A stretch of DNA of 49,180 nt from Bacteroidales bacterium. Lineage in GTDB: Bacteria; Bacteroidota; Bacteroidia; Bacteroidales; UBA932. The stretch is from assembly GCA_017509685.1 (NCBI GenBank), contig JAFWPA010000062.1, positions 1-49,180 on the forward strand. The letters run 5' to 3'. The notes under the pieces are model-generated. The model searched no databases. It saw nothing but the letters and a program-made list of their open reading frames with translations, and was not told where the DNA came from. Made by a program: the position numbers and the translations under genes. Shown here piece after piece: positions 7,021-44,189 of the stretch (positions within the stretch are counted from its first letter, which is position 1; each line of letters starts with the position of its first letter).

Positions 7021-7118
7021 GCAACCTGTAACGCGCTTTTGGGCCTTTTCCGCGTTATCGGTTGCATCGGTATGTAAGCAATAACGCACTTTTACGGGAA
7101 AAGTGCGTTATACGTTGC
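7021..7118 (+). repeat. Intergenic hairpin repeat, family 1, copy 1
   Basis: About 98 bases between convergent genes. It contains a perfect 13-bp stem with a 5-base loop at 7081-7111 (ATAACGCACTTTT and its complement), preceded by an imperfect palindrome, TAACGCGC to GCGTTA, at 7029-7057. The outer ends GCAAC and GTTGC also pair. An inverted copy lies at 25310-25409, likewise between convergent genes. It probably acts as a two-way transcription end or an mRNA 3' hairpin (inference). Confidence 0.8.
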
Positions 7119-25309: not shown

Positions 25310-25409
25310 GCAACGCATAACGCACTTTTCACGGAAAAGTGCGTTATTGCTTACATACCGATGTAACCTACAACGCGAAAAACCCAGAAAAGTGCGTTAC
25401 AGGTTGCAG
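25310..25409 (-). repeat. Intergenic hairpin repeat, family 1, copy 2 (inverted)
   Basis: About 100 bases, the reverse complement of the element at 7021-7118 with scattered differences. The 13-bp perfect stem with a 5-base loop is at 25317-25347. Long segments match exactly, for example TCGGTATGTAAGCAATAACG on the minus strand. It fills the gap between the converging acetyltransferase and permease genes. Confidence 0.8.
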
Positions 25410-27829: not shown

Positions 27830-27835
27830 CAGTCA

Positions 27836-30589: not shown

Positions 30590-30592
30590 AGT

Positions 30593-31213
30593 TTATTCGG
30601 CGGGGAAGAGGCCGTAAAGCTCGGCGTCTATCTTGTCTGTGATGAACTGGAAGTCCTCCGGGCGGTTCTCGAACTTGATGTTGTCTACGTCGATAATCAG
30701 CAGGCGGGCTTTGTAGTCCTTGATCCAGTCTTCGTAGCGCTGGTTGAGGCCGGTGATGTAGTCGATGCGGATGGAACGCTCGTACTCACGGCCGCGCTTC
30801 TGGATCTGGGCAATGAGGTTGGGGATGCTGGAACGCAGGTAAATGAGCAGGTCCGGCGGGTTTACCAGGGACATCATGAGGTCAAAGAGATCGCTGTAGT
30901 TCTCGAAGTCCCGGGTGGACATCAGGCCCATCGCATGCAGGTTGGGCGCGAAGATGCGGGCGTCCTCGTAGATGGTGCGGTCCTGGATGATCACTTCCTT
31001 GTGCTTGGAGATTTCCACCACGTCCTGGAAACGCTTGTTCAGGAAGTAGATCTGGAGGTTGAAGGACCAGCGCTCCATGTCCTCGTAGAAATCTGCGAGG
31101 TAGGGATTGAAGTCTACGGACTCGAATTTGGGCGTCCAGCCGTAATGCGCTGCAAGCATCTTGGTGAGCGTGGTCTTTCCACTGCCAATGTTACCGGCGA
31201 TAGCGATATGCAT
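30593..31213 (-). CDS. Deoxynucleoside kinase, second of a tandem pair
   Basis: 206 residues of the dNK family (dAK/dGK/TK2-like). P-loop GNIGSGKTT at 7-15, the DRTIYEDARIF segment with the catalytic Asp-Arg pair, and an arginine-rich lid QKRGREYERSIR. It phosphorylates a deoxynucleoside, probably deoxyadenosine or deoxyguanosine, for DNA precursor salvage. It is a paralogue of the gene 12 bases upstream, with similar sequence throughout. Such pairs in other bacteria form heterodimers with different specificities (family knowledge). Which one prefers which base cannot be told from sequence alone. Confidence 0.9.
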   Translation of the reverse strand: MHIAIAGNIGSGKTTLTKMLAAHYGWTPKFESVDFNPYLADFYEDMERWSFNLQIYFLNKRFQDVVEISKHKEVIIQDRTIYEDARIFAPNLHAMGLMSTRDFENYSDLFDLMMSLVNPPDLLIYLRSSIPNLIAQIQKRGREYERSIRIDYITGLNQRYEDWIKDYKARLLIIDVDNIKFENRPEDFQFITDKIDAELYGLFPAE

Positions 31214-31225
31214 AGTATAATGTAT

Positions 31226-31837
31226 TTAAAATAATCCGTACAGTTCCGCGTCTATCCTGTCTGTAATCTGGGCAAAGTCTTCCGGGCGGTTCAGGAAGTC
31301 CAGGTTGTCGGCGTCTATCTCGATGAGCCGGCCTTTGTAGGAGGAGATCCATTCTTCGTAGCGCTGGTTGAGGCCGCTCAGGTATTCGATGGAGATGGAC
31401 TGTTCGTAGTCCCGGCCGCGCTTCTGAATCTGGGCCACCAGGTGTTCGATGCTGGAGCGGAGGTAAATCATGAGGTCCGGCTGCTTCACCACCTCCATCA
31501 TCACGTTGTAGGTGTCCATGTAGGTGTTATAGTCCCGTTCCGAGAGATTGCCCTGGGCGTAGTTGTTGGCCACGAAGATGTGCACGCCTTCGAAGAGGGT
31601 GCGGTCCTGGATGATGACGTCCTTGGACTTGGAAATCTCCAGGACGTCGTGCAGGCGCTGCTGCAGGAAGTACATTTCCAGGGCGAAGGACCAGCGTTTG
31701 ATGTCCTTGTAGTAATCGGCCAGATAGGGGTTGTAGGTCACCGACTCGAACTTGGGCGTCCAGCCATAATGGCGGGCCAGGAGCGTGGTGAGCGTGGTTT
31801 TTCCACTTCCGATATTTCCGGCGATTCCGATGTGCAT
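31226..31837 (-). CDS. Deoxynucleoside kinase, first of a tandem pair
   Basis: 203 residues, same family and architecture as its neighbour: P-loop GNIGSGKTT at 7-15, DRTLFEGVHIF, and lid QKRGRDYEQSIS. The two proteins share the segments HYGWTPKFESV and YLRSSI, and end similarly (RIDAELYGLF against KIDAELYGLF), pointing to a local duplication followed by divergence. It is the promoter-proximal copy. The gap to the next ATG is 12 bases. The predicted partner is the second kinase. Confidence 0.9.
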   Translation of the reverse strand: MHIGIAGNIGSGKTTLTTLLARHYGWTPKFESVTYNPYLADYYKDIKRWSFALEMYFLQQRLHDVLEISKSKDVIIQDRTLFEGVHIFVANNYAQGNLSERDYNTYMDTYNVMMEVVKQPDLMIYLRSSIEHLVAQIQKRGRDYEQSISIEYLSGLNQRYEEWISSYKGRLIEIDADNLDFLNRPEDFAQITDRIDAELYGLF

Positions 31838-31880
31838 ACAGGGACGGGGTCTTTATTCTACAAAGTTGGCAAAAGTTTCG

Positions 31881-31888
31881 TAAATTTG
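31881..31888 (+). promoter_or_regulatory. Promoter -7 box for the MBL-birA run
   Basis: TAAATTTG matches TAnnTTTG exactly, 22 bases before the ATG at 31911. The -33 box is not clear. Confidence 0.55.
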
Positions 31889-31910
31889 CAATTGCTTTAG
31901 AACAACACTT

Positions 31911-32582
31911 ATGCTCCATACACGCATTTTTCCTTTCAATCCGCTGGGTACCAATTGCGTCGTCCTTTGGGCCGATGGTTGCCGTCATTGCACGGTAGTT
32001 GACCCCGGCATGTCCTCCGACGACGGAGAGCGGCAGCTGCTGGACTTTTTCTCCCAGGTGGGGGTAACCCCGGACGCCATCCTGCTCACCCACGGCCACT
32101 TTGACCACGTGTGGGGCGTAGAGCGCATCCTGAAGATTTTCCCCGTTCCGGTGTACCTGCATCCCCTGGACAGAGGGATTCTGACCAACGGGGCTTCGGC
32201 CTTCCACGGTATGCCCTGCATGAACTTCCTGCGTCACGACTTCCCCACGGAGGATGTGGCCGATGGCGACACCGTCACCACCGGCGGCGTGCGCTGGAAG
32301 GTGCTGCACACCCCCGGACATACGCCCGGCGGCGTGTGCTACTGGTCGGAGGAGAACAACGTGCTGCTCAGCGGGGATACCCTCTTCGCCGGCAGTATCG
32401 GCCGCACGGACCTGGAGGGAGGGGACTATGACCAGCTGATGACCTCCATCAAGGAGAAACTCCTGAATCTGCCGGGCCAGACGGATGTGCTTCCCGGCCA
32501 CGGCCAGCCCACCTCCATCGCGCGCGAGGGAATGACCAATCCTTTCCTGGAACCGTTCAACGAACCCTTGGAAGAGTCATAA
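31911..32582 (+). CDS. Metallo-beta-lactamase-fold hydrolase (glyoxalase II-like)
   Basis: 223 residues. All metal-binding motifs are present: THGHFDH (60-66), HTPGHTPGG, SGDTLF with the bridging Asp, and PGHG near the C-terminus. This is the small YcbL-like branch related to glyoxalase II, thought to act on thioesters such as S-lactoylglutathione or similar compounds. The true substrate is unknown. It overlaps birA by one base (TAATG). It shares its intergenic region with the divergent deoxynucleoside kinases. Confidence 0.92.
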   Translation: MLHTRIFPFNPLGTNCVVLWADGCRHCTVVDPGMSSDDGERQLLDFFSQVGVTPDAILLTHGHFDHVWGVERILKIFPVPVYLHPLDRGILTNGASAFHGMPCMNFLRHDFPTEDVADGDTVTTGGVRWKVLHTPGHTPGGVCYWSEENNVLLSGDTLFAGSIGRTDLEGGDYDQLMTSIKEKLLNLPGQTDVLPGHGQPTSIAREGMTNPFLEPFNEPLEES

Positions 32583-33301
32583 TGAACGTCGTCTGGCTGG
32601 ATACTGTGGATTCTACGAATTCCGAGGCCTTGCGGCGGCTGGCTCAGTTGCCGTCTGGCACGGTGCTGGCGGCGCGCGAGCAAACGGCCGGACGGGGACA
32701 GCGGGGGAACACCTGGTTCTCGGAACCGGGGAAGAACCTCACGTTTTCCATGGTCCTGAAGGATCTTGCGATATCTGCCCCCGATGCCCCCAGGCTCAAT
32801 TATCTCACCTCCGTAGCGGTGGCTTCCTACCTGGAATCCAGGGGTGTAAAGGCCGATATCAAGTGGCCCAATGACATCTACGTGGGCGGCCGAAAGATTT
32901 GCGGCATGCTGCTGGAGAACACCCTGGGCCCCGACGGGCGGCTCCTGGCTTCGGTGATAGGGATAGGCATCAATATCCATCAGAAAGACTTTCCGCAACT
33001 GGCGAATGCCACTTCACTATGCCTTTGCACGGGAAAGGAATATGAGCTGACAGCGGAACTGAAGGCGTTTCTGGATACATTTGAGGGGCTCTTGCCGCAG
33101 CTGCTGTCCGAGGAACTCTCCGCCGCCTATTCGGCCCGGCTTTTCCGGAAGGACGTTCCGGCGCGGTATCACGACCTCCTCACCGATTGCGAGTACCAGG
33201 GCGTCATCGAAGGCGTAGAGCCCGACGGCCGCCTGCACATTCGCAGTCTGGACGGCAGAGACTGCTATTATCGATTTAAAGAGGTAAGCTATATATTATG
33301 A
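32582..33301 (+). CDS. birA: Biotin-[acetyl-CoA-carboxylase] ligase
   Basis: 239 residues, lacking the N-terminal DNA-binding domain found in E. coli BirA, so it is a ligase only (group I). It activates biotin with ATP and attaches it to a carrier-protein lysine. Visible: the biotinyl-AMP loop GRGQRGNTW (37-45), KWPNDIYV (94-101) with the catalytic Lys, and the GIGINIH strand. A small C-terminal beta domain follows. It is coupled to the MBL gene by TAATG and overlaps the acyltransferase gene by 4 bases. Confidence 0.95.
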   Translation: MNVVWLDTVDSTNSEALRRLAQLPSGTVLAAREQTAGRGQRGNTWFSEPGKNLTFSMVLKDLAISAPDAPRLNYLTSVAVASYLESRGVKADIKWPNDIYVGGRKICGMLLENTLGPDGRLLASVIGIGINIHQKDFPQLANATSLCLCTGKEYELTAELKAFLDTFEGLLPQLLSEELSAAYSARLFRKDVPARYHDLLTDCEYQGVIEGVEPDGRLHIRSLDGRDCYYRFKEVSYIL

Positions 33302-34416
33302 AGAGAGAAGTCTGGTTGGATTTCCTGCGGGTGACCGCCTGCTTCCTGGTGATGACGGTTCATTCCACGGAACCGTTCTACCTGGGCGGCGAGGGTACCT
33401 TGGTGCAGTCATCGGCCGATGCCTTCTGGGTGAGCGTGTTCGAGGGCCTGGCCCGCTGCTGCGTGCCGCTGTTTGTGATGATCTCCGGCTACCTGCAGCT
33501 CCCGCTGCACCATTCCACCGGGGAGTTCTTCCGCCGCCGGGCCATCCGTATTGTGGTGCCGATGGTCATCTGGACCGTGGTGTACGCCCTGGTCTGGGGT
33601 CATCCGGTGGCCAATTTCAAGGGCTTGCTTCTGAACTTCAACTATGCCGCGGGGCATCTGTGGTTTGTGTATATGCTGCTGGGACTGTACCTGATCATGC
33701 CCGTGCTGTCTCCTTGGCTGGAGAAAGTGTCCCGCAAGGAACTGGGGCTGTATCTGGCCCTGTGGTCGCTTACGCTGTTCATCCCCTATGTGCGGTCGGT
33801 TGCCGGCGGTCTGGCCCCCATCATTTACGCCCGGGACGGCCTTCCCGCTCCGGCCCTGTTCCCCCTGTGGGGCGAGGCTTCCTGGAATCCCTTCGGCCTG
33901 TTCTACTATGTGAGCGGCTTCGTGGGCTACCTGTTGCTGGGCGTGTACGTGCGGCGGTTCGTCCCTTCCGGCCGGCTGGTACGTGTGCTGGGCTGGACAT
34001 TCTTCCTGGTGGGTTTCATCTTTACCTGCTTCGGCTTCCTGCAGCAAATCTGTGAAGGCGGATACTTCCCGGTGGAAGGGTCCGTTGAAGTGGCCGTGAA
34101 CTGGGAGTGCGCCATTGCCTTCTGCGGCTTCCCCGTGGCCCTCACGGCGCTGGGCCTGGTGCTGGTATTCCGCCCGATTGCCGTTCCGGAGGACTCCGGC
34201 TTTTATAAGTACATTATCCAGCCGCTGGCTGAGGCCGGTTACGGCATGTACCTCATGCACATGCTCATCCTGGGACCGGTTGCAGGCTGGCTGCACGGCA
34301 TGTGGAGCACGCCGGTTGTGATTCTGGCCACGGCTGCCATCAGCTTTGTCGCCTCCGGCCTTATTGCCGTATTGGTGCGCCACATCCCCGTGGTGGGCAA
34401 ATGGATTATCGGCTAA
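33298..34416 (+). CDS. Acyltransferase-3 family membrane protein
   Basis: 372 residues with about ten hydrophobic segments. The Acyl_transf_3 signature is clear: REVWLDFLRVTACFLVMTVHS at the N-terminus with the conserved His21 region, then PLFVMISGYL and RRAIRIVVPMVIW. Such proteins transfer acetyl or other acyl groups to sugars of the cell envelope. No SGNH extension is attached, so this is the stand-alone type (WecH-like). Acceptor unknown. The ATG overlaps the end of birA and is followed after 3 bases by the HAD gene, so it is part of the four-gene run. Confidence 0.9.
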   Translation: MKREVWLDFLRVTACFLVMTVHSTEPFYLGGEGTLVQSSADAFWVSVFEGLARCCVPLFVMISGYLQLPLHHSTGEFFRRRAIRIVVPMVIWTVVYALVWGHPVANFKGLLLNFNYAAGHLWFVYMLLGLYLIMPVLSPWLEKVSRKELGLYLALWSLTLFIPYVRSVAGGLAPIIYARDGLPAPALFPLWGEASWNPFGLFYYVSGFVGYLLLGVYVRRFVPSGRLVRVLGWTFFLVGFIFTCFGFLQQICEGGYFPVEGSVEVAVNWECAIAFCGFPVALTALGLVLVFRPIAVPEDSGFYKYIIQPLAEAGYGMYLMHMLILGPVAGWLHGMWSTPVVILATAAISFVASGLIAVLVRHIPVVGKWIIG

Positions 34417-34419
34417 GTT

Positions 34420-35076
34420 ATGGTAAAACTGCTCATTTTCGACTTCGACGGCACGCTGGCCGACACCCGGGAACTCATTGTGAAAACCAACCAGGAGGCC
34501 CAGCGGCGCATGCATTATCCGGTGTGCGAGCCGGAGCGTATCATCGCCACCATCGGTGTACCGCTGCGGGAAGGCATCCTCACCATGTATCCCCAGATAC
34601 GCCCGGAAGAACTGCCTCAATGGGTAAAGGTATACCGGGAAGTGTTCGATTCCCTTAAACACCAGATTGTCCCGGCCCTTTTCCCGCACGTGAAGGAGAC
34701 CCTTGCTGCACTGTGCAGCCAGGGCTACACCTGTTCGGTGGCTTCCTCCCGCGGATCGGAATCCCTGAACGACTTCCTGCGGGACATGGGTATCGCTCCC
34801 TATATTTCCTATGTACTGGGGGCCGATGACGTCACCCACGCCAAACCGCACCCCGAACCCGTGCTCAAGACGCTGCGGGACCTTTCCGTCCCCGCCAGCC
34901 AGGCCATGGTCATCGGCGACATGCCCGTGGATATCCAGATGGGCCTGGGCGCCGGCGCCTGGACCTGCGGCGTAAGCTTCGGCAATGCCGACCGCCCCAC
35001 CCTGGAAGCCGCCGGTGCCCACTATGTCATTGACGATTTCGGCCAACTCACGGCCGTGGTGGATTCCATCGGCTAG
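34420..35076 (+). CDS. HAD-superfamily phosphatase (phosphoglycolate-phosphatase-like)
   Basis: 218 residues, subfamily IA. Motif I FDFDGTLADT with nucleophile Asp8 and Asp10, motif II in SVASSRGS, Lys in THAKPHPEP, and motif IV IGDMPVDIQMG are all intact. A helical cap domain lies between motifs I and II. It removes phosphate from a small metabolite, perhaps phosphoglycolate or a sugar phosphate. The presence of a glycerate kinase gene next to it would be consistent with two-carbon metabolism, but a separate repeat and promoter region divides them. Last gene of the MBL-birA run. Confidence 0.88.
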   Translation: MVKLLIFDFDGTLADTRELIVKTNQEAQRRMHYPVCEPERIIATIGVPLREGILTMYPQIRPEELPQWVKVYREVFDSLKHQIVPALFPHVKETLAALCSQGYTCSVASSRGSESLNDFLRDMGIAPYISYVLGADDVTHAKPHPEPVLKTLRDLSVPASQAMVIGDMPVDIQMGLGAGAWTCGVSFGNADRPTLEAAGAHYVIDDFGQLTAVVDSIG

Positions 35077-35094
35077 CCGCCTGCGGCCGGGCTT

Positions 35095-35196
35095 GGAACG
35101 TTTGGTAACGAACTTTTGGCCATATTTTCGTAACGCCATGACCCGCGGGTTTTGGCGTTACGAGTTTTTGGGCTTTTTCTCGTTATGGGACGTTCC
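35095..35196 (-). repeat. 102-base hairpin repeat, family 2, copy a
   Basis: Begins 18 bases after the HAD stop. Ends GGAACG and CGTTCC pair, and an inner perfect 10-bp stem CGTAACGCCA/TGGCGTTACG frames the centre. Its reverse complement matches the copy at 39244-39345 at 100 of 102 positions. The rest of the gap to 35292 is A/T-rich and probably holds the glycerate kinase promoter, though no clean box was seen. Confidence 0.9.
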
Positions 35197-35292
35197 ATTA
35201 CCACTTCGACCAAACAATAACCCTGCAAAAAAAATATATGTTTTGCATGTTAAATTTTATGTTTTGAAGGATTTGTGTTTATTTTGTGCCTT

Positions 35293-36306
35293 ATGAGGAT
35301 TATCGTCGCGCCGGATTCGTTCAAGGAGTGCCTGTCGTCACCGCAAGTGGCGGCCAGTTTGGGGGCGGGAGCAAGGGCAAGATGGCCGGAGGCCGAGGTG
35401 GTGGAACTCCCCCTGGCCGATGGTGGCGAAGGCACCCTGGATATCCTGGCAAAAGCCTTACAAGCAACGCCAATGACGGCCGCTGTCCACGACCCTTTGG
35501 GCCGACCGGTGCAAACCCGTTATGCCATCTCGGGCCATACCGCCATCATAGAAGTTGCGCAGGCCGTGGGACTGTCCCTTTTGGCTCCCGAGGAACGGAA
35601 CCCGTTAAAAGCATCCAGTGCCGGATTGGGAGAGCTTCTACTGGCAGCCCACGGAAACGGATGCCGCCATTATATGATAGGTATGGGCGGCACGGCCACC
35701 TGTGATGGCGGTGCCGGTATGCTCAGCGTGCCGGGAATCCTTCAGTTGCAGGATGCCCGCTTTGAATTGCTCTGTGATGTGGATGCTCCCTTTCTGGGCC
35801 CGAAGGGTGCCGCACGGGTTTTTGCGCCGCAGAAAGGAGCCTCACCGGAGGACGTGGAGGTTTTGGAAGACAGAATGAGGAAACAAGCTGCCAAGTTGCT
35901 GGTCCAAACCGGTGTGGATGTATCCTGCCTCCCTGGTGCCGGTGCTGCGGGCGGTCTTGCCGGTGCCCTTGTGGCTGCATTTGGGGCCGATATCAAAAAA
36001 GGCATAGACCGCATCCTGGACCTGGTCCACTTCAGGGATATGGCCGCCGGCGCAGACCTTGTCATCACCGGCGAAGGCAAGTCCGATGCCCAAACCCTGA
36101 TGGGAAAAGTGCCCATGGGTGTTCTTCAAAACGCTGGCAGCACGCCGGTCGCCCTTCTTTCCGGCTGCATCGAAGACCGTGCAGCCTTGCAACAAGCCGG
36201 TTTCAGTTCCATCGTTGAAGTCAGTCCCCGTTCCATGCCACTTGCCCAAGCCATGAACCCTTCCGTTGCCACCGGAAACCTGTTCAAGGCGGTGAAGGCC
36301 CTTTAG
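35293..36306 (+). CDS. glxK: Glycerate kinase (PF02595 family)
   Basis: 337 residues from the ATG at 35293, preferred over a Met six codons upstream because MRIIVAPDSFKECL is the family start. It phosphorylates D-glycerate, giving 2-phosphoglycerate in the GarK/GlxK class. Typical segments: LADGGEGT (about 43-50), MGGTATCDGGAGM in the middle, and ITGEGKSDAQTLMGK in the C-terminal half. Flanked on both sides by copies of the 102-base hairpin repeat in opposite orientation, so the gene sits inside an inverted pair. Monocistronic by layout. Confidence 0.9.
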   Translation: MRIIVAPDSFKECLSSPQVAASLGAGARARWPEAEVVELPLADGGEGTLDILAKALQATPMTAAVHDPLGRPVQTRYAISGHTAIIEVAQAVGLSLLAPEERNPLKASSAGLGELLLAAHGNGCRHYMIGMGGTATCDGGAGMLSVPGILQLQDARFELLCDVDAPFLGPKGAARVFAPQKGASPEDVEVLEDRMRKQAAKLLVQTGVDVSCLPGAGAAGGLAGALVAAFGADIKKGIDRILDLVHFRDMAAGADLVITGEGKSDAQTLMGKVPMGVLQNAGSTPVALLSGCIEDRAALQQAGFSSIVEVSPRSMPLAQAMNPSVATGNLFKAVKAL

Positions 36307-36307
36307 T

Positions 36308-36409
36308 GGAACGTCTCATTACGAGAAAAAGCCCAAAAACTCGTAACGCCAAAAACCGCGGATCGTGGCGTTACGAAGATATGGGCATAAGTTCGTTACG
36401 GGACGTTCC
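36308..36409 (+). repeat. 102-base hairpin repeat, family 2, copy b
   Basis: Starts one base after the glycerate kinase stop. Same length and structure as the other two copies, with about 11 differences from copy a. Outer arms GGAACGTC/GACGTTCC and the inner 10-bp stem are kept; several changes fall in the variable middle. Confidence 0.9.
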
Positions 36410-36446
36410 AAACGTGCACGGGATGTCCCTGTCGAGCCCGAAGGCA

Positions 36447-36477
36447 TTTGTTTTCTCGACACTTTTCGATATCTTTG
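36447..36477 (+). promoter_or_regulatory. Promoter of bcp
   Basis: TTTG at 36447-36450, 19-base spacer, TATCTTTG at 36470-36477: an exact match to the Bacteroidetes consensus. The ATG is 16 bases further at 36494. Confidence 0.8.
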
Positions 36478-36493
36478 CGAAAACGCACAGGAT

Positions 36494-36949
36494 ATGCTCA
36501 AGATTGGAGACAAGATGCCGTCTTTCGAGGTGATCGACCAGGACGGGAACGTGGTGAAATCGGAGGATTTCATCGGCAAAGGGAAAAAGACCATCATTTA
36601 TTTCTACCCTAAGGACAATACGTCCGGCTGCACGGCCGAGGCCTGCTCTTTCCGGGACAATTATGCCGCGCTTACCGAGGCCGGTTACAACGTGGTGGGC
36701 GTGAGCAAGGACAGCGCCAAGTCCCACACGGGGTTCCGTGCCAAATATGAGCTGCCCTTCCGGCTGCTGGCCGATACCAGCACGCAGATGCTGCAGGACT
36801 TCGGGGCCTGGGGCGAGAAAAAGATGTACGGCAAGACCACGATGGGCACCCTGCGCCGCACCTTCATCTTTGACGAGAACGGCATCCTGGAACGCCTCAT
36901 TGAGAAGGTGGATACCAAGGACGCCGCCGGGCAAATCTTAAACGCTTAG
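36494..36949 (+). CDS. bcp: Thioredoxin-dependent thiol peroxidase (Bcp/PrxQ)
   Basis: 151 residues from the ATG at 36494. A longer frame from 36365 runs through the hairpin repeat and the promoter and is rejected. It reduces hydrogen peroxide and organic peroxides in the cytoplasm using thioredoxin. The PrxQ pair is visible: peroxidatic Cys46 and resolving Cys51 in TSGCTAEACSFRD. The usual FYPKDNT precedes them and the GVSKDSAKSH segment follows. aroK starts 7 bases after its stop and probably shares the transcript. Confidence 0.96.
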   Translation: MLKIGDKMPSFEVIDQDGNVVKSEDFIGKGKKTIIYFYPKDNTSGCTAEACSFRDNYAALTEAGYNVVGVSKDSAKSHTGFRAKYELPFRLLADTSTQMLQDFGAWGEKKMYGKTTMGTLRRTFIFDENGILERLIEKVDTKDAAGQILNA

Positions 36950-36956
36950 TCTCCTT

Positions 36957-37454
36957 ATGCTCATTGCATTGACGGGATTTATGGGAAGCGGGAAAACCAG
37001 CGTTGGCCGCCTGGTGGCCGATGCCCTGGGCTGCCCTTTCCTGGACCTGGACGAAATCATCGTCAAAAAGGCGGGCCGCAGCATCCCGGAGATTTTCCAG
37101 GCCGATGGCGAAAAAGGCTTCCGCCGCCTGGAAAAGGACGCGCTGGAAAAGACCGTGGCCAAATATGCCGAAAACACCGCCGTGCTGGCCCTGGGCGGCG
37201 GCACCGTAACCGTTTCCGGAGCCGTGAAACTGCTGCAGGAAAAGACCCTCTGCATCTATCTGGAGGCCGATATTGACACCCTCATCGCCCGCTTGCAAGG
37301 CCAGACAGAAGGTCGTCCGCTGGCCGATGAAAACATGGCCGCACGCCTGGCGCAGCGCGAGCCCCTGTACCGGGAAGCCTCGCATGTAACCATCGATACG
37401 GCCGGTCTCACCCCCGAGGAAATCACCGACGAGATTATTATTTCCTGTTTGTAA
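36957..37454 (+). CDS. aroK: Shikimate kinase
   Basis: 165 residues. It phosphorylates shikimate with ATP in the aromatic pathway. The P-loop GFMGSGKTSVG lies at 7-17, shikimate-binding Asp32 in FLDLDEII, and the GGGTV motif near residue 81. The adenine-lid Arg occurs in EGRPLAD. Normal length for AroK. Co-transcribed with bcp. Its last codons overlap the promoter region of recJ, whose -33 box is at 37448-37451. Confidence 0.95.
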   Translation: MLIALTGFMGSGKTSVGRLVADALGCPFLDLDEIIVKKAGRSIPEIFQADGEKGFRRLEKDALEKTVAKYAENTAVLALGGGTVTVSGAVKLLQEKTLCIYLEADIDTLIARLQGQTEGRPLADENMAARLAQREPLYREASHVTIDTAGLTPEEITDEIIISCL

Positions 37455-37479
37455 ATCTGCTTCGTTTTGCCTATCTTTG
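37448..37479 (+). promoter_or_regulatory. Promoter of recJ
   Basis: TTTG at 37448-37451 (inside the last aroK codons), 20-base spacer, TATCTTTG at 37472-37479: an exact consensus match. It ends 7 bases before the recJ ATG, so the message is likely leaderless. Confidence 0.8.
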
Positions 37480-37486
37480 TAAGACT

Positions 37487-39223
37487 ATGGGCATTAACGA
37501 ACGTCAGTGGATTGTCAAGCCGGTAGAGCACCCTGAAAAGGCTGCCAGGCTGGCTACGGAACTCGGGATAGACCGGGTTCTGGCGGACCTTTTGGTTCAG
37601 CGTGGCGTAGAGACGTTCGAACAGGCCCGTTCTTTCTTCCGCCCCCGCCTGGAAGACCTGCACGATCCCTTCCTGATGAAGGACATGGACAAAGCCGTGG
37701 AGCGCGTGCATCAGGCTGTTACGGGCGGTCAGAAAATCCTGGTTTACGGAGACTATGACGTAGACGGCACCACCGCCGTGGCACAGGTGTATTCTTTCCT
37801 GAAACAGTTCACCTCCAAGGTGTCCTTCTATATCCCGGACCGCTACGACGAAGGTTACGGCCTCTCCTACAAAGCCCTGGACTGGGCAGGAGACAATGGA
37901 ATCAACCTGGTCATCACCCTGGACTGCGGCATCAAGGCCATTGAAAAAGTGGAGTATGCCCGCACCAAGGGAATTGACGTCATCATCTGCGACCATCACC
38001 TGCCGGAGGAACAGCTGCCCAAGGCCGTGGCCGTACTGGATCCTAAACGGGAAGACTGCCATTATCCCTTCGACGACCTCTGCGGTTGCGGTGTAGGCTT
38101 CAAGCTGGCCCAGGGTTATGTGCAGCAATATGGCCTGGACAAGGCCCTGCTGGATCCGCTGCTGGACCTGCAGGTGGTTTCCATTGCGTCGGACCTGGTG
38201 TCCATGACCGGGGAGAACCGCATCCTGGCCCACTTCGGCCTCAAGCGCCTGAACGAGAATCCCCGCAAAGGCCTGCTGGCCATGATCAACCTCTCCAAGC
38301 TGGAGCCCGGCCATATCGGCATCGACGACATCGTCTTCAAGATTGGCCCCCGCATCAACGCCGCAGGGCGTATGGAAAGCGGCCGGCTGGCGGTAGAGCT
38401 GCTCACCGCTACCGATGACCGTACGGCGTTCCATATCGGCGAGCAAATCAACGACAATAACAACGAGCGTAAGTCCATCGACCGCGAGATTACGCAGGAG
38501 GCGCTGGATATGGTCACTGCCGGAAAAGCCCTGGCCACCGCCAACGTGACCATCGTGTACAACCCCACCTGGAACAAGGGCGTGGTGGGCATCGTAGCCT
38601 CCCGCCTGGTGGAAGCCTATTACAAACCCACGGTGGTGCTCACCAAGAGCAACGGCTTCGTCACTGGCAGCGCCCGCAGCGTGCAGGGTTTCGACCTGTA
38701 TGCCTCCATCGAGAGCTGCGCAGACCTGCTGGAGAACTTCGGTGGCCATATGTATGCAGCCGGCCTTACCATGAAAGAGGAAAACGTCGCGGAATTCTGC
38801 CGCCGCATGGACTCCTTCGTGGCCGAAAACATCACCCGCGAAGAGCTCACCCCCATCGTGGAAATCGACGCCCGCCTGGATTTCTCCCAGATAACACCCA
38901 AATTCACCCGCATCCTCAAACAGTTCCAGCCCTTCGGCCCCGGCAACAACAATCCCGTCTTCATGACCGAAGACGTGTACGATGCCGGCAACGGCCGCAA
39001 AGTGGGCGCCGGCGGTGTGCACCTGAAACTGGACCTGATGCAGGAAAGCCAGCCATACCGCCAGATTGCCGCCATCGGCTTCAATATGGCCGATTACTTC
39101 GACCACATCAAGGCCGGCAATCCCATCGACGCCTGCTATTCCATTGTGGAAAATTTCTACCGCGGCTCGTCCACCATCCAGCTCCGCCTCAAAGACATCC
39201 GCGAGCGGGATGAACTAATCTAG
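37487..39223 (+). CDS. recJ: Single-stranded-DNA exonuclease RecJ
   Basis: 578 residues, normal length. A 5'-3' exonuclease acting on single strands in recombination and mismatch or base-excision repair. Manganese-binding motifs of the DHH family are present: YGDYDVDGTT (87-96), LDCGIK (145-150), CDHHLPEE (168-175), and the DHHA1-type region with GRMESGRLAVELL. The C-terminal OB-type part ends in LRLKDIRERDELI. It has its own promoter overlapping the end of aroK. A copy of the 102-base repeat lies 20 bases downstream. Confidence 0.97.
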   Translation: MGINERQWIVKPVEHPEKAARLATELGIDRVLADLLVQRGVETFEQARSFFRPRLEDLHDPFLMKDMDKAVERVHQAVTGGQKILVYGDYDVDGTTAVAQVYSFLKQFTSKVSFYIPDRYDEGYGLSYKALDWAGDNGINLVITLDCGIKAIEKVEYARTKGIDVIICDHHLPEEQLPKAVAVLDPKREDCHYPFDDLCGCGVGFKLAQGYVQQYGLDKALLDPLLDLQVVSIASDLVSMTGENRILAHFGLKRLNENPRKGLLAMINLSKLEPGHIGIDDIVFKIGPRINAAGRMESGRLAVELLTATDDRTAFHIGEQINDNNNERKSIDREITQEALDMVTAGKALATANVTIVYNPTWNKGVVGIVASRLVEAYYKPTVVLTKSNGFVTGSARSVQGFDLYASIESCADLLENFGGHMYAAGLTMKEENVAEFCRRMDSFVAENITREELTPIVEIDARLDFSQITPKFTRILKQFQPFGPGNNNPVFMTEDVYDAGNGRKVGAGGVHLKLDLMQESQPYRQIAAIGFNMADYFDHIKAGNPIDACYSIVENFYRGSSTIQLRLKDIRERDELI

Positions 39224-39243
39224 TCCGGCCTATCGGTGGCCTA

Positions 39244-39345
39244 GGAACGTCCCATAACGAGAAAAAGCCCAAAAACTCGTAACGCCAAAACCCGCAGGTC
39301 ATGGCGTTACGAAAATATGGCCAAAAGTTCGTTACCAAACGTTCT
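39244..39345 (+). repeat. 102-base hairpin repeat, family 2, copy c
   Basis: Between the converging recJ and parC genes. It differs from the reverse complement of copy a at only two positions (one in the loop, one at the last base), though the two are 4 kb apart. Confidence 0.9.
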
Positions 39346-39381
39346 AAGCCCGGAAACCTGCGCCGTTAAGGCCCCGGGGGG

Positions 39382-39400
39382 TTAGGGGGCCGTCCCCTAA
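39382..39400. terminator. GC hairpin directly after parC
   Basis: TTAGGGG and CCCCTAA form a perfect 7-bp stem with a 5-base loop that starts at the base next to the parC stop codon. There is no T-run on the minus strand, so efficiency as a terminator is unclear. Similar in form to the hairpin after lysS. Confidence 0.45.
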
Positions 39401-42163
39401 TTAGAATAAGGTAGGTTCCCAGCCTTCGAAATCGGCCGGGGCGTCATCCTCGCCTCCTTTCAGGAGGTCGGAGGACTGGCCGGTCTGTTCAATTTCAGTG
39501 GCGGGAGCAACGTCATCGGCCTCCAGATCCACGTCGATGGCGTCATCGGCGTCCAGGCCTTCGGCGATGGTGGGGGCTTCGGGCTCCAGGTCGTCTTCGG
39601 GCTTGTGCAGGGGTTCGCCGAATTCCACGCGTTTGACTTCGTACGGGGAAACCTTCTTGCCCTTGGCGGTGACGCCCTTCTTGGCGATGAATTCCTCGGC
39701 GTCCACGGTTTCGGCTTCACGGTGTTCGTGCTTGCCGCCGAAGGTGAGAATCAGCTGCGGATGAAGGTCGTCGGAGATGTCCACCAGCTTGGAGCCACGG
39801 GCATCGGCGATGAACAGGACGGGGGAGTTGTTGCTCTCCGTGAAGCTGAAGCGCTTCACGTAGTAGGCCTTGGCGGCATTGTCCCAGTACAGCACCGTAT
39901 ACACGCGGCCGGGATCCAGCTTTTCAATGCGGATGACGTCGCCTTGGTACTTGTTCACCAGGTCGTAGGTGGTGGTGTAATAGCTGCCGTCGGCGAAGAT
40001 GGCCAGTACGCGGTCCTGCCCGGCGAACTTGCCCAGGTGCTGTCCGCGGCCTTCCTCGTTCAGACGCTGGATATCGGGGTCGTACCAGATGTCCTTGCCT
40101 TCCAGGGTGGTGATGCCCTTGGACTTGAGCTGGATCTTGGCGATGGCGTTCTTGGTGACCAGGTTACCCCTGGAAGCGCGCCCCTTGATGGCCAGGGAGG
40201 AGAAGTCCCATTCCAACTGCAACTTCTTGAGCCCCTTCTTGGGACGCAGGTTAATCTTCACGGTTTCGGCTTCACCGTTGTGGTTCACCGTGAACCAGAG
40301 GATCTTGGAATCGGGGGCGCCGGTGGTGATGTCGTAGTCGTTGTCGCGGGTGATGGAGGTGATGGCGAAACGCTTGGCATAGTGGGTGGGGCCCTTTCCG
40401 TCGCGGTAAATCACGTTGTAGATGGTGCGTTCGTCGTTGCGGTTGAAGACGCCGGCATAGAGCAGGTCCTTGCCGAAGAAAGCCTTTTCGCTCACCTTGG
40501 TCACGCGGTACTTGCCGTCCTTGTGGATGACGATAATCTCGCTGAGGTCCGAGCACTCGCCGATGAATTCTCCGCCGTCGTCCTTCTTGAGGCCGATACC
40601 CACGAAGCCTTCCTCCAGATTGGCATACAGCTTGGCGTTGTTGGACACCACCTTGGTGGCGGCAATAGTCTCCAGGGAAGAGATTTCCGTGAGACGCGGC
40701 CACTGCTTGCCGTATTTCTTCTTGAGTCCCTTGAACCAGTCGATAGTGAACTCCGTGATGTGCTCCAGGTGGTCCTTCACTTCCTTCATCTGGTCTTCCA
40801 GGGCGTAAATCTTCTCGTCCAGGGCCTTGGTGTCGAACTTGGAGATCTTGCGCACGGGCTTCTCCACCAGTTTGAGGATGTCGTCCATCACGATGGGCCG
40901 ATGCAGCAGATCCTGGTACTGAAGCATCTGTTTGAAGATGTCGTCCAGCTGCTCTTCCCAGCTCTTCTGGTTCTGTTCCAGCACCTTGTAGATGCGGTTT
41001 TCGAAGAAGATGCGCTCCAGGGAACTGTAGTGCCAGTCGTTCTCCAACTCGCCCAGTTTCACCTCCAGCTGCGCTTGCAGGATGTCCCGCGTGTGGTAGG
41101 TGTCATATTCCAGGATTTCGTCCACGGTGAGGAACACCGGCTTATTGTCCCGGATGACGCAGGCGTTGGGCGCAATCTTGGTTTCACATTCGGTGAAGGC
41201 GTAGAGGGCGTCGATGGTCTTGTCCGGGGAAACATCGGCCGGAAGATGGATGATGATTTCCACCTTGTCGGTGGTCATGTCATCTATCTTCTTGATATTG
41301 ATCTTCTTCTTGTCCTTGGCCTTGATGATGCTGTCGATGATGGCCTGGGACGTTTTGCCGTAGGGAATCTCGGTGATGGTGATGGTGGATTTGTCCACCT
41401 TGTTGATGCGGGCGCGCACCTTCACCATACCGCCGCGCTTGCCTTTGTTGTACTTGGAGCAGTCTGCGATACCTCCGGTGGGGAAGTCCGGCAGCAGCTC
41501 GAAGGGTTCTCCCTTAAGGATGGCAATGGAAGCGTCGATGAGTTCGTTGAAGTTGTGCGGCAGAATCTTGGAGGAAAGACCGGCGGCGATGCCTTCGGTA
41601 CCCTGGGCCAGCAGCAGCGGGAAGCGCACGGGCAGTTCCGTGGGTTCCTGGTTGCGGCCGTCGTAGGAAGTCATCCAGGGCGTGACCTTCTTGTCAAAGA
41701 CCACCTCCTTGGCAAAGTTGGAAAGGCGGGCCTCGATGTAACGCGGGGCGGCGTTGGAGTCTCCGGTGAGGATGTTGCCCCAGTTACCCTGGCAGTCGAT
41801 GAGCAGCCCCTTCTGGCCCAGGGTTACCAGGGCGCCCAGGATGGACTGGTCTCCGTGCGGATGGTACTGCATGGCCTGGCCCACGATGTTGGCCACCTTG
41901 GTGTAGCGGCCGTCGTCCATCGTGGCCATCGTGTGCAGCACGCGGCGCTGAACGGGCTTGAAACCGTCTACGATGTGGGGGACGGCACGGTCCAGAATGG
42001 TATAGGACGCATAGTCCAGGTACCATTCCTTGAACATGCCGGAGAGCTTGTACTTGCCGGCGTCGCTGCCCAGGAGTTTGTCAAACTTTCCCGAAGCCGC
42101 AGCGTCCTCGCCCAGCTCTTCTTCCTGTTCCTGTCCTTCGATGTCTTCCCAGTCTTCTGCCAT
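39401..42163 (-). CDS. parC: DNA topoisomerase IV subunit A
   Basis: 920 residues. The N-terminal winged-helix and tower domains of the GyrA/ParC family carry the cleavage tyrosine Tyr142 (AAPRYIEARL) and the HPHGD motif at 101-105. The C-terminal half is a beta-pinwheel, followed by an acidic tail of about 70 residues rich in Asp, Glu, Pro and Ala. The length, the N-terminal acidic extension and LIDCQGNWGNILTGD fit the Bacteroidetes ParC rather than GyrA. The residue after HPHGD is Gln106, where quinolone-sensitive enzymes often have Ser. It decatenates chromosomes with ParE, which is not in this window. Last gene of the exbB run, 2 bases after era. Confidence 0.93.
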   Translation of the reverse strand: MAEDWEDIEGQEQEEELGEDAAASGKFDKLLGSDAGKYKLSGMFKEWYLDYASYTILDRAVPHIVDGFKPVQRRVLHTMATMDDGRYTKVANIVGQAMQYHPHGDQSILGALVTLGQKGLLIDCQGNWGNILTGDSNAAPRYIEARLSNFAKEVVFDKKVTPWMTSYDGRNQEPTELPVRFPLLLAQGTEGIAAGLSSKILPHNFNELIDASIAILKGEPFELLPDFPTGGIADCSKYNKGKRGGMVKVRARINKVDKSTITITEIPYGKTSQAIIDSIIKAKDKKKINIKKIDDMTTDKVEIIIHLPADVSPDKTIDALYAFTECETKIAPNACVIRDNKPVFLTVDEILEYDTYHTRDILQAQLEVKLGELENDWHYSSLERIFFENRIYKVLEQNQKSWEEQLDDIFKQMLQYQDLLHRPIVMDDILKLVEKPVRKISKFDTKALDEKIYALEDQMKEVKDHLEHITEFTIDWFKGLKKKYGKQWPRLTEISSLETIAATKVVSNNAKLYANLEEGFVGIGLKKDDGGEFIGECSDLSEIIVIHKDGKYRVTKVSEKAFFGKDLLYAGVFNRNDERTIYNVIYRDGKGPTHYAKRFAITSITRDNDYDITTGAPDSKILWFTVNHNGEAETVKINLRPKKGLKKLQLEWDFSSLAIKGRASRGNLVTKNAIAKIQLKSKGITTLEGKDIWYDPDIQRLNEEGRGQHLGKFAGQDRVLAIFADGSYYTTTYDLVNKYQGDVIRIEKLDPGRVYTVLYWDNAAKAYYVKRFSFTESNNSPVLFIADARGSKLVDISDDLHPQLILTFGGKHEHREAETVDAEEFIAKKGVTAKGKKVSPYEVKRVEFGEPLHKPEDDLEPEAPTIAEGLDADDAIDVDLEADDVAPATEIEQTGQSSDLLKGGEDDAPADFEGWEPTLF

Positions 42164-42165
42164 AA

Positions 42166-43047
42166 TTAGAACTCATATCCAAACCGGCGCAGCTCCTTGC
42201 GGGACTCCCGCCAGTCGGGGTCAACTTTTACAAATGTAGTTAAAAATACCTTCTTCTGGAAGAAGTCTTCCATTTCCAGGCGGGCTTCGGTGCCCACTTT
42301 CTTGAGGGCGGAGCCGCCCTTGCCGATGATGATGCCCTTCTGGGAATCCCGCATCACGTAGATGACGGCCGATATCTCATAGCGGTCCTCTCCCTCGTGG
42401 AATTCCTCAATCTCTACCTGGCAGGAGTAGGGGATTTCCTCGGAGTAGTTGAGGAAAATCTTCTCCCGGATAATCTCCGAGGCAAAGAAGCGGAGGTTCT
42501 TGTCTGTGAACTGGTCTTTGTCAAACCAGGCCGGGGCTTCCGGCAGCTGGGAGGAAACCGCCTCCAGGATGCTCTCCAGGTTGAATTTTTCCTGGGCCGA
42601 TACGGGGATGATCTCCGCCTTCGGAAGCTGTCCTTTCCACCATTCCATGAGTTCTACCACCTTCTCCTGGGAGGAGATGTCAATCTTGTTGATGACCACC
42701 ACCACGGGGCAGTCCACCTTCTGCAGTTTCTGGATGTAGGCTTCGTTCTTGTCGCCTTTCTCCACGGTGTCCGTCACGTACAGGATGATGTCGGCGTCGC
42801 CGATGGCCGTGTCTACGAAGGACAGCATGTTCTCCTGCAGCCGGTAGTTAGGCTTGAGGATGCCGGGGGTGTCGGAGTACACAATCTGGTAGTCCTCCCC
42901 GCTCACGATGCCCATGATACGGTGCCGGGTGGTCTGGGCCTTGGCTGTCACGATAGACAGCTTTTCCCCCACCAGGGCGTTCATCAGCGTAGACTTACCC
43001 ACGTTGGGGTTGCCGATGATATTGACAAAACCTGCTCTGTGCGCCAT
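42166..43047 (-). CDS. era: GTPase Era
   Basis: 293 residues. An essential GTPase that assists 30S ribosome assembly by binding the 3' end of 16S rRNA. G1 is GNPNVGKST (12-20), G2 lies around TTRHRI, G3 is SDTPG, and G4 is NKID. The C-terminal KH domain has YEISAVIYVMRDSQKGIIIGKGGSALK, with the GxxG loop. Normal length. Start and stop overlap rluB by one base, and parC follows by 2 bases, so all three are translated from one message. Confidence 0.97.
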   Translation of the reverse strand: MAHRAGFVNIIGNPNVGKSTLMNALVGEKLSIVTAKAQTTRHRIMGIVSGEDYQIVYSDTPGILKPNYRLQENMLSFVDTAIGDADIILYVTDTVEKGDKNEAYIQKLQKVDCPVVVVINKIDISSQEKVVELMEWWKGQLPKAEIIPVSAQEKFNLESILEAVSSQLPEAPAWFDKDQFTDKNLRFFASEIIREKIFLNYSEEIPYSCQVEIEEFHEGEDRYEISAVIYVMRDSQKGIIIGKGGSALKKVGTEARLEMEDFFQKKVFLTTFVKVDPDWRESRKELRRFGYEF

Positions 43048-44189
43048 TATACGTATGCTCCCATTTTGAGGATGTTCACTTCACCTTCCGTGAGGTAACG
43101 CCAGTCGCTCTTCTTGAGGCCTTTCTTGGTGAGGCCGGCGAAGTACACGCGGTCCAGGGCCTTTACGTCATAGCCCAGGGACTCGAAGATGCGGCGTACC
43201 ACGCGGTTCTTGCCACTGTGGATCTCGATACCCAGCTGACGGTGGTCGTGGGCGTCGATGTATTCCAGCTCATCGGCAGCTACCACGCCGTCGGAGAGCT
43301 CGATGCCGGCCAGGATCTTCTGCTGGTCTTCCTCCTTGAGGGGAGCGTCCAGCACTACCTGATAAATCTTCTTCTTGTTGTAGGACGGGTGCGTGAGGCG
43401 CTCGGCCATCTCGCCGTCGTTGGTGAACATGAGCACGCCGGTGGTGTTCTTGTCCAGCCGGCCCACGGGGAACACGCGGGTGGGGCAGCCCTTCAGCAGC
43501 TCCATCACGGTTTTTTCGGCGTGGGGGTCGCTGGCCGTGGTCACGTAACCCTTGGGCTTGTTCATCACAATGTACACTTTCTCTTCTCCCTTCAGGCGCT
43601 GTCCGTTGAAGCGGATGTCGTCGGTGAGGATGTTCACCTTGGTGCCCAGTTCGGTCACCACTTCGCCGTTCACGGTGACTACACCGCTCTGGATGAGGGT
43701 GTCGGCCTCCCTGCGGGAGCACACGCCGGAGTTGGCGATGAACTTGTTCAGGCGCACCACCTCCTTGATTTCGGTGGGGGCGGTGTCGTCGTCGCTGTAA
43801 CGGCCGTTCACCTGTGGTTTGCGGGAGAGCATGGCGTTCATGCCTTCATCGGCCTGGCTGCGCTTGGCGTAGGGCTTGCGGGCGCTGGGCTTGCTGCCGG
43901 GACGGCCGCTCTTGAAACCGGGCTTGTCGCTGTTGAAACCGGGTTTGCTGCCGAAGGACGGCTTGCCGTAACCGCTCTTGCGGGGACGGTCGTTGTTGCT
44001 GCCGTAGCTGCGGCGCTCTCCGTTCTGGGGACGTCCTTCGCCGTCACGGCGGGGGCGGTCGTTGTTACCATAGCTGCGGGGACGGTCATTGCCGTAACTG
44101 CGGCTGGTGCTGTAATCTACTTTTTCTGCATGACCCTCGGAGGGTTTGCGGGTGATACGTTTTCTCGTACCTCTTTTGTTGTCTTCCAT
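43047..44189 (-). CDS. rluB: RsuA/RluB-family 23S rRNA pseudouridine synthase with a basic low-complexity N-terminal extension
   Basis: 380 residues. The first 140 residues are low-complexity: repeated NDRPR, SYGNN and GKP/GFKS units rich in Arg, Gly, Asn and Ser. An S4 RNA-binding domain follows (VRLNKFIANSGVCSRREAD, about 145-195), then the pseudouridine synthase domain with catalytic Asp246 in GRLDKNTTGVLMF. It converts a uridine in 23S rRNA (position 2605 in E. coli RluB) to pseudouridine. RluE or RluF specificity cannot be excluded. The extension is probably an unstructured RNA-binding tail. Coupled to era. Confidence 0.92.
   Translation of the reverse strand: MEDNKRGTRKRITRKPSEGHAEKVDYSTSRSYGNDRPRSYGNNDRPRRDGEGRPQNGERRSYGSNNDRPRKSGYGKPSFGSKPGFNSDKPGFKSGRPGSKPSARKPYAKRSQADEGMNAMLSRKPQVNGRYSDDDTAPTEIKEVVRLNKFIANSGVCSRREADTLIQSGVVTVNGEVVTELGTKVNILTDDIRFNGQRLKGEEKVYIVMNKPKGYVTTASDPHAEKTVMELLKGCPTRVFPVGRLDKNTTGVLMFTNDGEMAERLTHPSYNKKKIYQVVLDAPLKEEDQQKILAGIELSDGVVAADELEYIDAHDHRQLGIEIHSGKNRVVRRIFESLGYDVKALDRVYFAGLTKKGLKKSDWRYLTEGEVNILKMGAYV

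Follow-up and report, generated by a model that had tools for sequence, protein, structure and literature searches.

A 102-bp hairpin element of a Bacteroidales bacterium is a probable REPIN of a RAYT system without the GT[AG]G foot

The closest described relatives of the element treated here are the REPIN and REP-RAYT systems, in which repetitive extragenic palindromes (REPs) accompany a REP-associated tyrosine transposase (RAYT, or TnpA-REP; subclasses 2.2 and 2.5; PMC8049555, PMC8266576, PMC6006769). In such systems two inverted REP units form a long hairpin, copies are intergenic and lie after genes or between convergent genes, the HUH/Y1 transposase gene is flanked by repeats, one genome may hold several REP families with separate RAYTs, and copies are sometimes concentrated near the gene. 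The same traits are encountered with a 102-bp element, family A, that occurs three times in a 49,180-nt stretch of a Bacteroidales bacterium (contig JAFWPA010000062.1 of assembly GCA_017509685.1), hereafter the window. The window corresponds to contig C67 of a metagenome-assembled genome (MAG) of 2.31 Mb that comprises 91 contigs and is 79% complete (G000; handles in G, C and L denote genomes, contigs and loci). With a probability of about 85%, we consider the element to be a non-autonomous REPIN of an apparently undescribed Bacteroidales REPIN-RAYT subtype without the GT[AG]G foot, most likely copied by a RAYT. The system works like REPIN-RAYT and shares most of its structural features, the foot excepted; its repeats differ from the described ones in having no conserved GT[AG]G foot, units of ~51 nt, an A/T-GGCC-A/T loop and only 16 copies found.

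The first-pass annotation of the window had described three copies of equal length, and their number, coordinates, strands and lengths were all borne out (Table 1), as was their start 1-20 bases past a stop codon. The few differences it reported between copies were also confirmed: copy 1, reverse-complemented, is identical to copy 3 at 100 of 102 positions and to copy 2 at 91, while copies 2 and 3 agree at 89 (13 differences). The paired ends GGAACG/CGTTCC are present, copy 3 having CGTTCT instead, and so is the inner 10-bp stem CGTAACGCCA/TGGCGTTACG. Copies 1 and 3 also have in common 8 bases (AAGCCCGG) beyond one element end, the match then covering 110 positions (98%), 8 of these outside the element, which is consistent with a single recent copying or conversion event. 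The near identity had been taken to imply either recent spread or selection on structure. Recent copying or conversion is retained for copies 1 and 3 only; it does not describe the diverged family as a whole, and selection on RNA structure was not supported.

A search of the genome by blastn located 15 distinct places, and these 15 copies were used to build a covariance model, R1, which gave 16 full-length copies at 71-105 bits on 12 contigs, the next match being one 51-nt half-sized unit at 28 bits. Besides the three of the window, the genome thus has 13 further copies, which the first-pass annotation had not noted. All 16 are exactly 102 nt long, and no shortened or gapped copy is present in the R1 match list. 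Pairwise identity ranges from 63 to 100 of 102 positions (median 72), so that family A as a whole is diverged, unlike copies 1 and 3. The long-hairpin shape seen at first is evident throughout, with 29-37 of 51 dyad positions paired (34, 36 and 32 in copies 1, 2 and 3) against a mean of 12.4 and a maximum of 23 in shuffles, and symmetry about the element centre runs the full length (i+j=103). Each half is in addition roughly symmetric on its own centre (61.7% of cells paired versus 27.5-35.3% when slid), which permits a reading of the element as a pair of ~51-nt hairpin units, each a pseudo-palindrome with a stem carrying GTTACG(A/C) around the loop. Family A is in this respect what a REPIN is described to be: two inverted units in one long hairpin, dispersed in many copies that are mostly intergenic. 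Related genomes carry single ~50-nt units and longer tandem arrays; such arrays were observed at G348:C70:2298-2483, G157:C18:65580-65786 and G164:C12:41789-41942.

Table 1. Positions of the repeat elements and of the gene neighbourhood in the window
Feature	Position	Strand	Remark
REPIN-like element, family A, copy 1 (102 nt)	35095..35196	-	18 nt past HAD-family gene stop
REPIN-like element, family A, copy 2 (102 nt)	36308..36409	+	1 nt past glycerate kinase gene stop
REPIN-like element, family A, copy 3 (102 nt)	39244..39345	+	between convergent recJ and parC/gyrA-type genes; 20 nt past preceding stop
Gene neighbourhood, 14 query genes, uvrA to rluB	27830..44189	.	homologues surround RAYT in 16/69 loci
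REPIN-like element, family B (98 nt)	7021..7118	+	between convergent genes, stops 6958 and 7146
REPIN-like element, family B (98 nt)	25310..25407	-	between convergent genes, stops 25299 and 25415

The position of the copies relative to genes, based on our own simple codon-score gene calls, is similarly REP-like. Fifteen of the 16 copies are intergenic, 12 overlap a stop codon or lie at most 31 nt from one, and 14 lie within 63 nt. Eight of the 15 intergenic copies lie between convergent genes, versus 5 convergent pairs among the 41 of the window (binomial p 1.4e-4; 0.017 if 25% is expected); the copy at L075 was not counted, its right-hand gene being a weak 93-aa frame, and counting it gives 9/15. 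REPs of other bacteria are reported to lie mostly downstream of genes, between co-directional or convergent genes (PMC3733652), and copies would persist where they are harmless, directly past stop codons. By eye, a tRNA-like sequence apparently stands right before the copy at L080, in its left flank.

This placement could also be expected of an immobile cis-acting RNA element under selection, such as a bidirectional 3'-end hairpin, a terminator or an mRNA stabiliser, and the strong folding of both strands agrees with it. Copy 3, the one copy folded with controls, reached -39.9 kcal/mol on the plus and -53.7 kcal/mol on the minus strand when folded as RNA with short flanks (z -7.8 and -8.4), and 0/200 shuffles folded equally well on either strand. 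Covariation is absent, however, on the long-hairpin and the two-arm structure alike (82.8% paired versus 83.7% in shuffled alignments). The symmetry is carried by conserved words (TAACGA / TCGTAACGCC / GGCGTTACGA / TCGTTA) at constant spacing without indels rather than by demonstrated structure-preserving evolution, and selection on RNA structure is unsupported for lack of covariation. An intrinsic terminator (GC stem and T run) was rejected, no terminator-like T run being found at the three window copies (5 sites in the region versus 5.0 expected); a search of the window against Rfam at the gathering threshold gave 0 matches. One copy moreover lies inside a gene, orthologous sites are closed in relatives, and blastn with the element found no match in 36 same-genus genomes, in two of which (G005 and G010) R1 later gave weak matches. 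We consider an immobile RNA element improbable, although the mobile element may have a secondary RNA effect.

A transposase of the kind that a REPIN would depend on is encoded by related gut bacteria. A scan of GTDB genomes for RAYT gave 79 loci (best 80 of 97 kept), of which the 67 from Bacteroidales/Bacteroidia were analysed and 12 from other phyla left out; the 67 belong to MAGs, and the isolate names of many refer to rumen or ruminants. The gene encodes a ~305-aa HUH/Y1 tyrosine transposase with HxH and YxxRN motifs and a long C-terminal part. Both motifs are kept in all 66 intact RAYTs (64 from the 67 loci and two of the source genome; the broken genes L203, L205 and L206 were excluded from the tree), the middle residue being G in 2 and T in 1, so that at motif level each has the HUH motif and downstream catalytic tyrosine of RAYT class 2. 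In searches of 45 of the 64 (from L140-L206) against curated families, NCBIfam REP_Tyr_transpos matched 29 and Pfam Y1_Tnp 25 at E<=0.01. The best PDB sequence match is transposase 2xm3 (E 0.018), which we take to be of the IS200 type. Open frames of ~306-332 aa with MPNHxH adjoin R1-found elements in G341, G317, G379, G406 and G348. It was also observed that the RAYT frames at L101:1476-2426 and L082:2038-3036 run into the adjoining element, which gives their last codons.

The TnpA-Y1 subclasses tabulated in PMC6006769 were compared with this RAYT by their descriptions, and with none of them does it agree jointly in length, tyrosine motif, repeats and hosts. Subclasses 2.2 and 2.5 have medians of 151-165 aa, without the long C-terminal part seen here, and the class 2 signature Y---NP is found as YxxRNP in 23/66 only, another residue standing in place of P in the rest. 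The nearest by description are subclasses 2.6, 2.3 and 2.1 (TIRYT). Subclass 2.6 (RAYT group 5) is likewise found in Bacteroidetes, has NH[LIV]H and is flanked by atypical structures without GT[AG]G that have copies elsewhere in the genome, but its median is 179 aa and its motif YIH[QN]NP. Subclass 2.3 has a comparable median of 325 aa and a long C-terminal tail; it differs in NHYH, YVDLNP, the lack of identifiable flanking REPs and its mainly Chromatiales/Alteromonadales hosts. The TIRYTs of TIRtrons (PMC3733652, PMC6006769) are longer than typical RAYTs and have inverted-repeat flanks that are not GTAG REPs, with a published terminal inverted repeat consensus of GGGG[AT][CG]A[CG]; the C-terminal parts of 10 RAYTs of this group gave nothing above cut-off in Pfam and only sub-threshold matches of helix-turn-helix type. 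In the portions available of the open-licence literature on RAYT and REP in Bacteroidetes/Bacteroidales, no description of this group was found. By our guess the genus is Cryptobacteroides.

The link between elements and RAYT genes was assessed in three ways. At E<=0.01, R1, built from the source genome's copies only, placed an element in the flanks of the RAYT at 12 of the 67 loci; at 10 of these the distance to the end of the RAYT match, at the 3′ end of the gene, was at most 35 nt, and L141, L143, L147, L182 and L200 have elements on both sides. In a strict palindrome scan, the flanks of RAYTs gave 1.16 per kb, compared with 0.14 far away and 0.15 inside genes; the scan missed many dimers visible by eye and was hence replaced by a test, independent of R1, for a repeat common to the upstream and downstream flanks. 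With mismatched pairs as controls, 40 of 65 loci exceeded the 95% and 29 the 99% control level, the latter being exceeded by 0/50 far-window pairs. Finally, among 400 genomes of the genus a strong RAYT (E<=1e-100; 58 genomes) was present in 21/29 with a model match versus 37/371 without (Fisher p 1.3e-13 with the source genome included, 6.5e-13 without it), the R1 and RAYT scans being taken as the same 400-genome draw; 29/400 is possibly too low, as the R1 scan scored the 10 best candidates per genome. The first-pass proposal to look for a linked Y1 transposase thus led to related elements beside RAYT-type genes in other species and to none in the window itself, and the arrangement of a REPtron, a Y1 gene flanked by repeat copies, was seen in relatives and not for family A in the source genome.

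By comparison between genomes, a RAYT would appear to be what moves these elements. Such a transposase would act on exposed single-stranded DNA, where it would recognise the hairpin, cut it, and then copy or transfer the element. The analogy is with TnpA-REPs studied in vitro, for which cleavage of single-stranded REP DNA and formation of a 5'-phosphotyrosine link are described (PMC8266576).

Movement is further suggested by sites that are empty in relatives. The copy at C44:14773-14874 (G000; L070:1774-1875) lies in frame within an open frame of 522 codons, to which it contributes 34 and which has Thump_like and PG_1098 ferredoxin-like domains; this insert is absent from the orthologous DNA of G005 and G028. 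In four relatives (G101, G028, G157 and G005) the site of copy 3 is closed, recJ lying directly next to the convergent topoisomerase gene, while between these two genes G164 carries a related element. Comparison between these genomes indicates that the element has probably been mobile. Palindromic inserts read through in protein genes are also known from Rickettsia, as the Rickettsia palindromic elements (RPE). Intragenic REPs (PMC3733652) are alike in this respect, and here 1 of 16 copies is intragenic. As a separate observation, the flanks of the copy G000:C47:92933 (L074) are separated by 3.3 kb in G028:C17 and fall on opposite strands there, as after an inversion ending at the element.

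Mobility would also be explained by a classical miniature inverted-repeat transposable element (MITE), i.e. a deletion derivative of a DDE transposon with terminal inverted repeats moved in trans. Family A is small, non-coding in 15/16 copies and multicopy, and has inverted-repeat ends. Its symmetry, though, spans the whole element and not the ends alone, related elements adjoin HUH/Y1 genes (no search was aimed at DDE transposases with such ends), and the direct duplications at the ends measure 0-2 nt in all 16 copies, in keeping with the lack of a target duplication noted at the outset. A MITE origin is for these reasons hard to credit. The original guess at a REP/BIME-like or MITE-like element (BIME, bacterial interspersed mosaic element) stands in its first part, as related elements flank RAYT-type genes, and applies in its second only loosely, in that the element is small and non-autonomous.

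A chromosomal protein-binding site (parS-, matS- or nucleoid-protein-like), which words at constant spacing without indels, pairs without covariation and copies in the same region of several species would fit, is scarcely tenable against stem sequences that vary between species and between families of one genome, copies scattered over 12 contigs and elements that flank RAYT genes.

Several observations nevertheless weigh against a REPIN copied by a RAYT. A GT[AG]G foot was found at 5 of 32 feet versus 20 of 384 control windows, which does not place the element in the GTAG superfamily. Neither a RAYT nor a RAYT remnant was found in the window. The source genome has two strong RAYT matches (C21 and C66) and a weaker one (C79), and the RAYTs of C21 and C66 fall in a separate 20-row group of the tree; they were rejected as partners of family A on account of differing flanking repeats, the C66 gene having on either side dimers of a different palindrome whose loop is of the GGCC type, and the C21 gene having GGGCAC-type units downstream that were seen by eye and are absent from the automated repeat listing. 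The curated-family matches are weak (best member 1.7e-8; member 1 far under the NCBIfam cut-off and under the Pfam one). R1 found no flanking element at E<=0.01 in 55/67 RAYT loci, some of its matches lie away from the RAYT (L148, L150, L151, L155 and L159), and 25/65 loci have no common flank repeat above the 95% level. Eight of the 29 model-match genomes, which are incomplete MAGs, are without a strong RAYT, and weak matches (E 0.01-0.1) are among the 29, as in G005, G010 and G413. A query of joined flanks for 13 copies against four genomes gave a contiguous empty-site alignment for the C44 copy only, and at that insertion place G101 and G171 have different extra sequence.

The window itself offers a context for the missing partner. 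Its genes include an acyltransferase, HAD, glycerate kinase, peroxiredoxin, shikimate kinase, recJ and topoisomerase subunit A; the names uvrA, birA, MBL (metallo-hydrolase), era, rluB and dNK are our reading of open reading frames, made with no family search. When 14 window genes were compared by tblastn with 69 RAYT loci (the 67 and two of the source genome), homologues were found in changed order in the ~3-kb flanks of a subset (Table 1), shikimate kinase in 13 of these 16. All 16 home RAYT loci fall in one 22-row clade (support 97/89), to which the C21 and C66 RAYTs do not belong. Since these home RAYTs lie among homologues of the window genes and the window has no RAYT, the three-copy cluster most simply marks the home of a RAYT that was lost or has moved out. 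Concentration of repeats near the transposase gene has elsewhere been read as recent local multiplication (PMC8266576). The family-A partner was not found in this MAG of 79% completeness; it would belong to the home clade, and instead of having been lost from the locus it could lie in the unassembled fifth of the genome. A Y1 gene at G000:C51, found with Pfam, was dismissed as the partner, being of a different type (hmmsearch 19.9 bits) and without a family-A element on its contig.

Gene order is variable around recJ, as described for this region alone. Among the source locus and the 29 best-matching loci of the genus, 18/30 have one of six different window genes 3' of recJ, namely the topoisomerase (7, own included), birA (4), acyltransferase (3), shikimate kinase (2), uvrA (1) and metallo-hydrolase (1); none of the 14 was found there in 12/30. 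One may speculate that the REPIN-RAYT locus is a local genome-shuffling engine, which we regard as rather unlikely. In this reading recJ, uvrA, birA and the genes for shikimate kinase, topoisomerase subunit A and glycerate kinase, as core genes at home, would have been reordered and reoriented between related species with REPIN copies at the joints, and a domesticated single-strand transposase and its hairpins would generate gene-order variation at one place genus-wide.

Family A is not the only repeat of the window. Family B, a second and related family that the first-pass annotation had not noted, is present twice (Table 1) and has near-full copies on C48, C60 and C9 and partial ones on C70, C22, C56, C2 and C86. 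The stretch 35205-35295, ~90 bases before the glycerate kinase gene, is 79-87% identical to sequences at C9:156151, C51:34089 (upstream of a Y1 gene) and C42:31134, and may be a promoter region present in several copies or some further small repeat. GC skew gave no clear signal of origin or terminus in the 49 kb.

Among transposases that bacteria seem to have tamed, those of REPIN-RAYT systems are a prominent case, and what they give the host is still an open question (PMC8049555). Here, a large Bacteroidales genus has several REPIN families per genome and a RAYT clade kept in one neighbourhood, with gain, loss and reordering visible between species. The genus offers a natural series in which the persistence of REPIN-RAYT, the role of hairpins at gene ends and local rearrangement can be tested, and the system provides an anchor for naming RAYTs that curated models match weakly.

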